NCBI GenBank assembly: GCA_030148645.1
Contig: JASBTB010000076.1
Span: 1-47,271 of the forward strand
DNA: 47,271 bases
Source: Demequina sp.
GTDB taxonomy: Bacteria; Actinomycetota; Actinomycetes; Actinomycetales; Demequinaceae
Direction of reading: 5' to 3'
Shown here: one piece after another, positions 24,991 to 29,744 of the stretch
Position numbering within the stretch: the stretch's first letter is position 1
How the letters are laid out: every line of letters starts with the position of its first letter
The notes under the pieces: model-generated
Seen by the model: only the letters and a program-made list of their open reading frames with translations
What the model was told of the DNA's origin: nothing
The model's database searches: none
Made by a program: the position numbers and the translations under genes

Positions 24991-25392
24991 CTAGTGCGCG
25001 AAACGCCCAGTGGAGTATTCGAAGACCCATCCCACCAGGCCGATGGCGCCCACGATGACGGCCGGAACCATGATCCACCACCCCACGGCCAACGCCACGA
25101 AGGCGAGTGCGGTGCCCGCGCCGACCACGAGCGGCCACCACGACCATGGGGCGTAAAGCCCTTGGTCGCCCTGGCCCTCAGCAATCACGGCGTCGTCACG
25201 GTCTTCCGGGCGGTTGCCATGGCGCTTGCTCAACATGCGGTAGTAGATCCCGATCATGAAGGCAAGCCCCGCCGACAGCAAGATGGCGGGGAAACCCACG
25301 AGTTCCTTGAAGTCGGTGAGCGTGCCATAGACGATTGCGACGAGCAGAAAGAACGCTCCGGGGAACAAAAAGACGTTCGACTCAAGTTTCAT
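24991..25392 (-). CDS. ctaF: Cytochrome c oxidase subunit IV (actinobacterial CtaF)
   Basis: [51 protein letters not shown]...; overlaps ctaD stop by 4 nt. Confidence 0.94.
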
Positions 25393-27104
25393 CGCACGGC
25401 TCCTTGGGGCACCACTGGCTTGTCGAGGTTGTTGTCTGCCTCTTCGTGATGGTCGATCGCCGCCACCTGCGGGTAGTGCAGGTCAAACGCGGGACGCTCC
25501 GACCGGATACGCGGGATCGACACAAAGTTGTGACGCGGCGGCGGGCAACTGGTGGCCCACTCCAGAGAGTTGCCGTAGCCCCACGGGTCGTCCTCGGTCA
25601 CCCGTGGCGCGTACTTTGCCGTCTTGTAGACGTTCCAGAAGAACGGCAACGTGGACGACGCCAGCACGAACGCCCCAATGGTGGAGATCTGGTTGAGGAG
25701 AGTGAACCCGTCTTCTGGCAGGTAGTCCGCATAGCGGCGCGGCATGCCCGCCGCGCCCAGCAGATGCTGGACGAAGAACGTGGTGTGGAACCCGATGAAC
25801 AGCAACCAGAAGTGCAGTTTGCCCAGACGTTCGTTCAGCATCTTGCCCGTGAACTTGGGCCACCAGAAGTAAAAGCCAGCGAACATCGCAAACACTACGG
25901 TGCCGAAGACCACGTAGTGGAAGTGGGCGACCACAAAATAACTGTCCGACACCGGGAAGTCGAGAACGGGCGAAGCGAGAATGACACCCGACAGCCCGCC
26001 AAAAAGGAAGGTGATGAGGAAGCCGATCGACCACAGCATCGGGGTGGCCATGACGATCTTCCCGCCCCACATCGTGCCGATCCAGTTGAAGAACTTCACG
26101 CCAGTGGGCACCGCGATGAGCATGGTCATGAGGGCGAAAAATGGGAGCAGCACCGCTCCAGTGACGTACATGTGGTGAGCCCACACGGTCACGGACAGTG
26201 CCGCAATCGCTACGGTCGCATACACCAGGCCGTGGTAGCCGAACAGAGGCTTGCGGCTGAACACCGGGAGAATTTCCGTGACGATGCCGAAGAACGGTAG
26301 CGCGATGATGTACACCTCGGGGTGTCCGAAGAACCAGAACAGGTGCTGCCACAGGATGGCGCCCCCGAAGTCCGGATTGAAGATCTGGGCACCCAACACT
26401 CGGTCGGCACCCAGCGCGAACAGCGCCGCCGTCAGCGGCGGGAAGGCCACGAGAATCAGGAGCGACGTCACCAGGGCGTTCCACGTGAAGATCGGCATCC
26501 TGAACATCGTCATGCCGGGCGCACGCATGGTGACGATCGTGGTGATGAAGTTGACGGCACCCAGAATGGTGCCGAAGCCGGTCAGCGCAAGGCCGAACAC
26601 CCAGAGGTCGCCGCCCACACCAGGCGAGTACGTCGCGTTGGACAACGGCGCGTAGGCGAACCAGCCGAATGAGGCCGCACCCTGTGGTGTGAAGAATCCG
26701 GCCACAGCGATCAGGCCCCCGAAGAGGAAGAACCAGAATGCCAGCATGTTCAGGCGCGGGAACGCCATGTCGGGCGACCCTATCTGTAGCGGCATGATCA
26801 CATTCGCGAACCCTGCGAACAGCGGCGTCGCGAAGAGCAGCAACATGATGGTGCCGTGCATCGTGAACAGTTGGTTGTACTGCTCGGCCGACTGCACTAC
26901 CTGAATGCCCGGTTTGAACAGTTCGGCACGGATGAACAGCGCCATGACGCCGCCGATGATGAACCATGCGAACGACGCGGCCAAGTACATGTAGCCGATC
27001 GTCTTGTGGTCGGTGGAGGTGATCCACCGCACCACGGCAGAGCCTCTGGGACGGCTCGGGATCGTGGGCGCGGCTTCGGCGCGGCGTTCCAACTCAATGG
27101 CCAT
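25389..27104 (-). CDS. ctaD: Cytochrome c oxidase subunit I
   Basis: [68 protein letters not shown]. Confidence 0.98.
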
Positions 27105-27107
27105 GCT

Positions 27108-27971
27108 CTAACCCTCCCCGCCGGTCGGCTGGACGTCCGCGTCCTGCAGACGGTTGTACTCAAGGCCGATCGACCCGGTCTGGCCGGCATCGCGCAGGGA
27201 TTGGATGTAGGCGTCGTACTCCGCGCGAGGTACCACTTTCACCGTAAACAACATGGCCGAGTGATACTCGCCGCACAGTTCGGCGCATTTGCCCTGGTAC
27301 GTGCCTAGTTGCTGAGGAATGAACTGAATGTTGCTGGTGCGCCCCGGGATCATGTCCCGTTTGAACAGAAACGCGGGAACCCAGAATGAGTGAATCACGT
27401 CGCGCGAATTGAGCTGGATGTCGACCAGTTCGTTGACCGGCAGGTACAGAACCGGCAACGTCTCCTCGACGCCCACCTCACCGGTGAGTGTGGCCTGCAC
27501 GCCCACGCTGTACGCGTCGTCATCGAGATAGTTGAAGTCCCACGACCATTGCTTCCCGATCGCCTGAATGCGAACGTCAGGTTCGCCGGACACATCCGTG
27601 ATAGCCGCGAGGTCGGTGGCCGTCCAGCGGAACAGCACGGCGATCATCAGTAACGGCACTGCCACGTACATCAACTCGAGCGGCACGTTGGCCCGCGTCT
27701 GCACGGGCAACTTCTCGTCGTCCTTCTTCTTGCGGTACACCGTGATGGCCCACAGGATGAGCGTCAGGGTGATCGCGCCGACGATGAGAGCCGCGAGCCA
27801 CGAATAGTTCCACAGGTCGATGACGCGACCAGTTTGGTTGGTGACGCCGGGTTGACTGGGAAGACCATTGGCTTCGGCCTGGCCAGCACAGCCTGCGAGC
27901 AGGGCCGACGCCCCCACAACGAGGGCGGCAAGGCGTAGGCGACGAAGCGCTACTGGGGACAAGGTAGCCAC
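27108..27971 (-). CDS. ctaC: Cytochrome c oxidase subunit II
   Basis: Lipoprotein-like LLAGCAG; CuA motif CAELCGEYHSAMLFTVKVV; IQAIGKQWSWDFNY. GTG start. Confidence 0.97.
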   Translation of the reverse strand: MATLSPVALRRLRLAALVVGASALLAGCAGQAEANGLPSQPGVTNQTGRVIDLWNYSWLAALIVGAITLTLILWAITVYRKKKDDEKLPVQTRANVPLELMYVAVPLLMIAVLFRWTATDLAAITDVSGEPDVRIQAIGKQWSWDFNYLDDDAYSVGVQATLTGEVGVEETLPVLYLPVNELVDIQLNSRDVIHSFWVPAFLFKRDMIPGRTSNIQFIPQQLGTYQGKCAELCGEYHSAMLFTVKVVPRAEYDAYIQSLRDAGQTGSIGLEYNRLQDADVQPTGGEG

Positions 27972-28003: not shown

Positions 28004-29140
28004 ATGCAAAGGTCCCGGGTTTTCCTCGATTCGGGCGGTTCTTCGCCCCTTTCCGCTCGCGTTGCCGACGCATTGCGTGCCGGTTTCGCCGACGGGTGGG
28101 CGGACCCGGGCCGTTTGGGAACCGAATCGCGCCGCGCACGGGCACTGGTCGACAGCTCCCGCGAAGCCATCGCGGACGTGGTGGGGGCTCGCCCCGAACT
28201 CGTCCACTTCACGGCCAGCCCGCACGACGCTTTCGCACGCTGTATCGCGGGCATTCACGCGGCGCGGCGGGGTCGTCACCGCATTGTGGTGTCGGCAATC
28301 GAGCGAGACGCCTTGGCGAACGCGGCTACCTTTGTGGCGCCGCACGCCGTCGACGCCGTTCCTGTCGACCAGCGCGGACATGTCAGCATCGCGGACCTGA
28401 ATACCGCCTTGCAGTCGAACGATGTGGCTCTCGCCGCGGTGCAACACGCGAATCAAGAACTCGGCACGGTGCAGCGGCTCGAGGATGTGGCACGCGCCAC
28501 CCAATCGGTCGACGTGCCGCTACTGGTGGACGCAACCTCGAGCATCGGTCACATCGATCCCCCGGCGTATTGGGACGCCCTTGTGGCGCACCCGGCGGAT
28601 TGGGGCGGGCCAGCGGGCATCGGCATCCTGGCACTCGAGCCTCACACGCGTTGGTTGCAGGCCTGGCCTGAGGGTGACGATTGGGCTCCCGGCGGCATCA
28701 GCGTGCCGCTGGCCCTCGCATCGGCCGTCGCGCTTCAGGAGCGTGAGGAGGCCCGCCATCGCGAGAGCGAACGCCTGAGCGCGCTCGTCGATCGCATCCG
28801 TGCGGCGGCCGCGCAATTGGCCGGAGTGGACGTGCTGGGCGATCCTGACGAACGTGTGCCACACATCGTCACCTTCTCGTGCCTGTATGTGGACGGCGAA
28901 GCGTTGCTGGGCGAACTCGACCGACGCGGATTTGCGGTGGGATCGGGATCCGCGTGCGTCTCGGGAACGCTCGAACCGTCGCGGGTGTTGGCCGCCGTGG
29001 GCGCACTGACTCACGGCAACGTACGTGTGGCGCTCCACCCAGGTATCTCGGAGGACGACGTCGTTCGCTTCCTGGTCGAACTACCCGACGCCCTTGACGC
29101 CGTGCGCACGCGAATCGGTGCGCCGCGTATCGTCTCGTGA
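28004..29140 (+). CDS. Cysteine desulfurase (class V aminotransferase fold) homologue lacking the PLP lysine
   Basis: VQHANQELGTVQ, LLVDATSSIGHID and GSGSACVSGTLEPSRVLAAVGAL match NifS/IscS motifs; the SGHK region reads HPADWGGPAGIGIL; no K in the translation. Confidence 0.88.
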   Translation: MQRSRVFLDSGGSSPLSARVADALRAGFADGWADPGRLGTESRRARALVDSSREAIADVVGARPELVHFTASPHDAFARCIAGIHAARRGRHRIVVSAIERDALANAATFVAPHAVDAVPVDQRGHVSIADLNTALQSNDVALAAVQHANQELGTVQRLEDVARATQSVDVPLLVDATSSIGHIDPPAYWDALVAHPADWGGPAGIGILALEPHTRWLQAWPEGDDWAPGGISVPLALASAVALQEREEARHRESERLSALVDRIRAAAAQLAGVDVLGDPDERVPHIVTFSCLYVDGEALLGELDRRGFAVGSGSACVSGTLEPSRVLAAVGALTHGNVRVALHPGISEDDVVRFLVELPDALDAVRTRIGAPRIVS

Positions 29141-29385
29141 GCGCACAACCGGCCGAAGCCAACGCCATGGTGGACGCCCGCGGCACCGCGTGCCCACTGC
29201 CCGTCATCATGTTGGCCAGGGCCGCCGAAGACATGCCGTCGGGCACCCAGATCACCGTGTTGGCCACCGACGTTGCCGCCCGCTACGACGTTCCGGCGTG
29301 GGCGCGCATGACAGGAAACGACTTTGTGGGGGAAAGCGAAACGGACGGCGGGGCGTTTGCCCTCACCGTCCGTTTGCGACGCTGA
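29137..29385 (+). CDS. TusA-family sulfurtransferase/sulfur carrier
   Basis: VDARGTACPLPVIMLARAAEDMPSGTQITVLATDVAARYDVPAWARMTGNDFV (CPxP motif); GTG start overlaps the upstream stop (GTGA). Confidence 0.88.
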   Translation: MSAQPAEANAMVDARGTACPLPVIMLARAAEDMPSGTQITVLATDVAARYDVPAWARMTGNDFVGESETDGGAFALTVRLRR

Positions 29386-29390
29386 CGTGG

Positions 29391-29744
29391 TCAGCTGAAC
29401 GAGTCACCACACGCGCACGAACTCTGTGCGTTGGGGTTGTCGATCGTAAAGCCCTGCTTTTCGATCGTGTCTGCGAAATCGATCGTCGCACCATCGAGAT
29501 ACGGAACCGACATCTTGTCCACGACCACCTGGACGCCGTCATAGTCCCTGACCGCGTCACCGTCGAGTTGGCGCTCGTCGAAGTAGAGTTGGTAGATCAG
29601 ACCAGAGCAGCCACCAGGCTGAACGGCCAAACGCAAACGCAGGTCGTCGCGGCCCTCCTGTGCGAGGAGACTCTTGACCTTCGACGCGGCCGCGTCGGTG
29701 ATGACCACGCCGTGCGCCGAAACCTCAGTTACGGTGTCTGCCAT
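29391..29744 (-). CDS. erpA: Iron-sulfur cluster insertion protein (ErpA/IscA/HesB family)
   Basis: ITDAAASKVKSLLAQEGRDDLRLRLAVQPGGCSGLIYQLYFDE...SSCACGDSFS: conserved C and CxC. Confidence 0.95.
   Translation of the reverse strand: MADTVTEVSAHGVVITDAAASKVKSLLAQEGRDDLRLRLAVQPGGCSGLIYQLYFDERQLDGDAVRDYDGVQVVVDKMSVPYLDGATIDFADTIEKQGFTIDNPNAQSSCACGDSFS

Follow-up and report, generated by a model that had tools for sequence, protein, structure and literature searches.

A putative PLP-free pseudo-cysteine desulfurase beside tusA and ctaC in Demequina and its lysine-less orthologues in other actinomycetes

Background

Homologues of cysteine desulfurases that lack the PLP lysine are already known, mainly as single cases, in the form of IscS of A. 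fulgidus, IscS1 of Methanosarcina acetivorans and Rv3778c of M. tuberculosis. In A. fulgidus IscS an Asp replaces the PLP lysine and the protein has no desulfurase activity (PMC7585200), its Cys being a ligand to a [2Fe-2S] cluster (PMC7585200, PMC9769115). Rv3778c has been described as being without the PLP lysine and as probably non-catalytic (PMC12910592).

The gene analysed here is found in a Demequina MAG, in a window of 47,271 nucleotides that comprises positions 1 to 47,271 of contig JASBTB010000076.1 (assembly GCA_030148645.1):

28004 to 29140, plus strand: putative PLP-free pseudo-cysteine desulfurase (fold type I, NifS/IscS-like), 378 aa, assigned from profile matches, predicted structure and orthologues

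The encoded protein shares with A. fulgidus IscS (PDB 4eb5 and 4hvk; D199K mutant 4r5f) the NifS/IscS fold, the loop Cys and the Asp in place of lysine, which aligns with Asp199 of the pseudo-desulfurase in the alignment to 4eb5. However, A. fulgidus IscS keeps the equivalents of Thr76, His104 and Ser203 and has been shown with PLP, whereas in the pseudo-desulfurase these other PLP contacts are gone; conversely, the substrate Arg, a Leu in A. fulgidus IscS, is kept, and the partner is IscU in the one case and a tusA gene in the other. M. acetivorans IscS1 is similar in its NifS/IscS fold and missing PLP lysine, while Rv3778c, only distantly related to desulfurases, resembles the pseudo-desulfurase in the described absence of the PLP lysine; in the sampled family f22, taken as Mycobacteriaceae, no match above the level of true IscS was obtained. 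E. coli IscS in complex with TusA (3lvj) has the fold, the flexible Cys loop and the TusA partner in common with the pseudo-desulfurase, as predicted here, but is a PLP enzyme, most of whose PLP contacts are replaced in the Demequina protein. Lastly, a lysine-bearing desulfurase-TusA module beside ctaC in Streptomyces and other orders is orthologous, lies in the same neighbourhood and has TusA adjacent or fused; in its desulfurases SAHKWGGP, the S-G-T loop and His104 are all intact, unlike in the pseudo-desulfurase, and these enzymes should be active.

Methods

Residue equivalences were read from a large alignment that included E. coli IscS, the sequence of which was verified against the PDB entry, and the residues of IscS considered as PLP contacts are those generally known for this enzyme. 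The structure of the pseudo-desulfurase was modelled with AlphaFold from an alignment of 44 homologues. Phylogeny was inferred as a quick ML tree with the active-site columns left out, the AU test being applied to the ML trees, and dN/dS values were calculated for close pairs by the Nei-Gojobori method. Search family f21 was taken as Streptomycetaceae, partly from gene neighbours. For the TusA footprint comparison, the interface residues of IscS-TusA were taken from PMC2854127.

Results and discussion

Fold and profile matches

The coordinates and translation of the open reading frame were rechecked and stand. Pfam Aminotran_5 (PF00266) matches the whole length of the protein at 100 bits; the score against NCBIfam TIGR03402 (NifS) is 171.9 bits, below the equivalog cut-off of 530.75, and the score is also far under the equivalog cut-off for IscS. 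The AlphaFold model (pLDDT 92.6) superposes on M. tuberculosis IscS with a TM of 0.90, on the IscS chains of the E. coli IscS-TusA complex with 0.89-0.90 and on A. fulgidus IscS with about 0.9, and residues 317-322, the cysteine loop, form the sole segment with a pLDDT below 50. The pseudo-desulfurase is thereby predicted with confidence to adopt the IscS fold, its Cys loop being flexible. As regards the features of Group I cysteine desulfurases (EC 2.8.1.7), the persulfide Cys on a mobile loop is present, judged by predicted loop flexibility, and the PLP Schiff-base lysine is absent.

Dismantling of the PLP site

The positions that carry the comparison with IscS, all assigned by alignment, are as follows:

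28214 to 28228, plus strand: former phosphate loop, residues 71-75, ASPHD (SGATE in IscS)
28304 to 28306, plus strand: Arg101, replacing the PLP-stacking His104 of IscS
28598 to 28600, plus strand: Asp199 (codon GAT), replacing the PLP lysine (IscS Lys206)
28955 to 28957, plus strand: Cys318, the persulfide-loop cysteine (IscS Cys328), in the motif GSGSAC318

An earlier, sequence-only reading of this DNA had noted a protein without lysine that carries HPADWGGPAGI at the PLP-lysine segment, and rechecking of the frame, the translation and codons 28589-28621 (CAC CCG GCG GAT TGG GGC GGG CCA GCG GGC ATC) bears this out, with Asp199 aligned to IscS Lys206. A substitute lysine elsewhere in the protein is ruled out, there being none in the 378 residues; the zero count by itself is weak evidence because the family is lysine-poor, with a median of two in the lysine-bearing orthologues. 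The same reading had credited the protein with the NifS/IscS hallmarks, which holds for Cys318 and for Asp176 (IscS Asp180), the sole PLP contact kept of those considered, but not for the rest. The His that it named (in VQHANQELG) is not the catalytic one, since IscS His104 corresponds to Arg101; Thr76 of IscS has become His74, Gln183 Ser179, Ser203 His196 and His205 Ala198, and the G-T of the phosphate loop, conserved in lysine-bearing orthologues, is gone.

The same pattern recurs across the orthologues. Twelve alignment columns are conserved where the lysine is present and lost where it is absent, seven of them PLP-pocket positions (73, 74, 101, 102, 178, 196 and 199), whereas Arg341, Asp176, Glu152 and Cys318 stay in the lysine-less orthologues. 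Position 101 is His in all 86 lysine-bearing sequences covering it and Arg in 84 of 126 lysine-less ones; among the proteins with Asp199, about 77 in number, 67 have Arg there, and an Arg101-Asp199 salt bridge could fill the emptied PLP pocket. By sequence, standard desulfurase chemistry would be impossible for the pseudo-desulfurase. Two further variants were seen among the homologues: six lysine-bearing ones from other actinobacterial groups (L114, L117, L119, L124, L125 and L127) read AK for HK, His205 being replaced by Ala, and a Verrucomicrobia MAG protein (L097) at 32% identity reads HRFYGPKG, with Arg at the lysine position and the Cys kept.

Loop cysteine and selection

Cys318 is conserved in all 213 sequences covering it; likewise, every lysine-less orthologue that covers Arg341, the counterpart of IscS Arg354 in the alignment, retains it. 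Every pair tested from Demequina and Cellulomonas, whether tusA is present or not, has a dN/dS of 0.05-0.23, and one Phycicoccus pair gives 0.45. The gene is therefore considered functional, as Cys318 is invariant and dN/dS mostly 0.05-0.2. These comparisons show a PLP site that, judging from the aligned sequences, was selectively dismantled, with the fold, Cys318 and Arg341 under purifying selection. In divergent Demequinaceae copies (L077, L173, L078) a Cys-rich loop, GCGCTC or GVGCSC, replaces GSGSAC; L077 and L173 have the identical sequence GCGCTC, such loops being reminiscent of a metal site, and genome G572 carries a Cys-rich-loop copy besides a normal one (L172).

Spread and history of the lysine loss

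The alignment check suggested by the sequence-only reading gave this outcome: among 186 orthologues compared, 62 carry the lysine and 124 do not, Asp176 and the loop Cys being kept. The replacing residue is mostly Asp, then Ser, with few Ala, Gly and Thr and a single Glu, Met and Ile. Orthologues occur throughout Demequina, and all those examined have Asp at position 199 (the first 30 at 55-87% identity); two divergent Demequinaceae have Ser, and Lys at this position was not found in any Demequina or Demequinaceae orthologue examined. The lysine-less orthologues throughout the genus exclude an assembly or sequencing error, or chance, at the lysine site, and neither the sequence error nor the intact HK in sister species that had been named as grounds for abandoning the reading was encountered. 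Its central proposal, a repurposed scaffold without an internal aldimine, is upheld in that the lysine loss is family-wide while the persulfide-type Cys and Asp176 are retained.

Within the GTDB order to which Demequina belongs, including Demequinaceae, Cellulomonadaceae and Intrasporangiaceae, every sampled member lacks the lysine, as do several other families of the class; Streptomyces and the majority of the other families sampled keep it. As outgroups and paralogues bear the lysine, its presence is taken as the ancestral state. Both states occur in family f121, which suggests either that the lysine was lost repeatedly or that genes were transferred. The best ML trees need eight state changes (102 rows) or six (86 rows), but a single lysine-less clade was not rejected by the AU test (p-AU 0.27).

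Gene neighbourhood and TusA

The genes around the pseudo-desulfurase are:

25389 to 27104, minus strand: ctaD, cytochrome c oxidase subunit I (sequence, synteny)
27108 to 27971, minus strand: ctaC, cytochrome c oxidase subunit II, divergent neighbour (NF050117 314 bits, synteny)
29137 to 29385, plus strand: tusA, sulfurtransferase, Cys19 in a CPLP motif (codon 29191-29193; Pfam TusA 68 bits)
29391 to 29744, minus strand: ErpA/IscA-type Fe-S carrier, convergent neighbour (NF010147 120.5 bits, above cut-off; synteny)

The start of tusA overlaps the stop of the pseudo-desulfurase gene. The recurrent gene order is glycerate kinase and ErpA, then the desulfurase-like gene and tusA, then ctaC and ctaD, the ctaC neighbour being conserved from Streptomyces to Demequina. 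A TusA with CPxP, adjacent or fused, marks the coupled module, and the window has it as CPLP. Of the 62 lysine-bearing orthologues, 61 have TusA next to or fused to them, against 76 of 123 lysine-less ones; 46 lysine-less orthologues have no adjacent TusA. The CPxP Cys of adjacent or fused TusA is nearly always kept. Natural desulfurase-TusA fusions exist with the lysine in Streptomyces and without it in L167, L263, L268 and L276.

The coupling to tusA that had been read from the window is thus ancestral, but the case for an obligate partner is weakened, since 19 of the 35 classified Demequina loci have no adjacent tusA (16 have one). Many Demequina and Cellulomonas without tusA still keep the pseudo-desulfurase and its Cys, and no TusA domain was found anywhere in seven of 41 good Demequina genomes. 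With 46 of 123 lysine-less orthologues lacking an adjacent TusA and seven of 41 genomes lacking any, TusA is evidently unneeded for retention of the gene. As a descriptive pattern that rests on few independent pairs, TusA seems to have been lost almost only after the lysine, the Cys staying. At one locus (L069) a tusA remnant with an in-frame stop lies downstream of the pseudo-desulfurase, and at another (L078) the TusA is without the CPxP Cys.

Relaxation of the TusA-footprint surface would be expected where tusA has been lost; it was not found there, the footprint-to-rest ratio being 0.68 without TusA vs 0.72 with TusA in Demequina and 0.56 vs 0.91 in Cellulomonadaceae. This suggests some other constraint on the surface and, the footprint being unrelaxed in TusA-less lineages, gives no support to TusA as its sole user. 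Many Demequina have a second TusA, present as one domain within a large protein, as in L157 (G017:C1:83597-83806). By eye, this protein resembles a CoA-disulfide reductase/NADH oxidase to which rhodanese, TusA (CPGP) and DsrE-like regions are joined, and it is a possible PLP-independent source of sulfane sulfur.

Genuine desulfurases

The sequence-only reading had called for a genuine desulfurase elsewhere in the genome, and one was located. The MAG has its own IscS-like enzyme, of which one part lies at the end of contig C10 (L001) and the other at the start of C140 (L002) of G000; the two fragments overlap by about 45 identical aa, and the SSHKVGGP and GAAC motifs are intact. Complete or near-complete Demequina genomes have SufS beside SufU plus an IscS-like enzyme, SufU-SufS being present in each of the eight further Demequina genomes examined. 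An IscU-type scaffold was not found in the window's own genome, an incomplete MAG, and no IscU-type gene adjoins the pseudo-desulfurase.

Probable role

Since the PLP machinery has been lost while selection has kept the sulfur-carrying Cys, the scaffold is suggested to have a further function for which no cofactor is required. The interpretation preferred here, to which an even chance is given, is that the protein is a PLP-free pseudo-desulfurase, the lysine-less orthologue of an actinomycete desulfurase-TusA module beside ctaC, which may work without a cofactor, either relaying persulfide or serving as a docking scaffold. In the inferred relay or docking role, sulfane sulfur produced elsewhere, whether by SufS, by IscS or by an enzyme of the rhodanese type, would be taken up by Cys318 and passed on to the Cys of TusA, which is co-translated; in lineages that have lost tusA, this loop and surface would serve a different acceptor.

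The main rival, regarded as rather unlikely, is an Fe-S assembly scaffold that would no longer produce sulfur and whose loop Cys would coordinate a cluster being assembled on SufU or the neighbouring ErpA. The precedent is A. fulgidus IscS, the closest solved relative by sequence, inactive with Asp at the lysine place and with its Cys as ligand to [2Fe-2S] (PMC7585200, PMC9769115), and the conserved ErpA neighbour, the persistence of the invariant Cys without TusA and the Cys-rich loop GCGCTC of some Demequinaceae (L077, L173) point the same way; but that protein retains the PLP contacts lost here, SufU lies with SufS elsewhere and no IscU-type gene adjoins, and ErpA is a carrier, not IscU-like. 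Unlikely, too, is a regulatory or structural partner without sulfur chemistry, either a decoy or heterodimer partner of the catalytically competent desulfurase or a factor in the assembly of the divergently encoded cytochrome oxidase. Conservation of ctaC as divergent neighbour from Streptomyces to Demequina and retention without TusA are consistent with such a partner, whereas the loop Cys, invariant in 213 sequences, speaks for a role in thiol chemistry or in binding a metal and, for a heterodimer, a Gly at the IscS Thr243' position means that this contact is missing too.

A decaying relic on its way to loss would account for the successive loss of the lysine and tusA and for the tusA remnant with a stop in L069, but the frame is intact across the genus and families, Cys and Arg are essentially invariant, and the low dN/dS, mostly 0.05-0.2, contradicts decay; this very improbable explanation was rejected on the latter ground. 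The least credible proposal is an active enzyme with PLP held non-covalently, as the sequence-only reading had contemplated, or through another residue. Asp176, whose IscS counterpart Asp180 contacts N1 of PLP, is kept, and A. fulgidus IscS has been shown with PLP despite its Asp; yet, unlike in that protein, the phosphate loop and the equivalents of Ser203, His205, His104 and Gln183 are all lost and there is no lysine anywhere, and non-covalent PLP was rejected because most of the PLP contacts are gone.

Conclusion

No description of the pseudo-desulfurase family was found in the literature searched, most subscription papers being outside the search; as far as that literature goes, the widespread family, the selective loss of the PLP site, the full retention of the persulfide Cys and the TusA/cta context are new. 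One orthologous family here offers a series from intact to broken, with apparently active and PLP-free members sharing one gene neighbourhood and with TusA fused, adjacent or lost, which allows one to ask what a Cys-loop scaffold does without catalysis. In many actinomycetes, genes that are likely annotated as 'cysteine desulfurase' probably do not encode desulfurases. Tentatively, and with somewhat less than even confidence, desulfurase scaffolds may have lost PLP in actinomycetes at least once, perhaps several times, and live on as cofactor-free carriers of persulfide or clusters in which the loop Cys alone works. If this carrier reading is true, desulfurase activity would be separable in nature from the delivery function of the scaffold.
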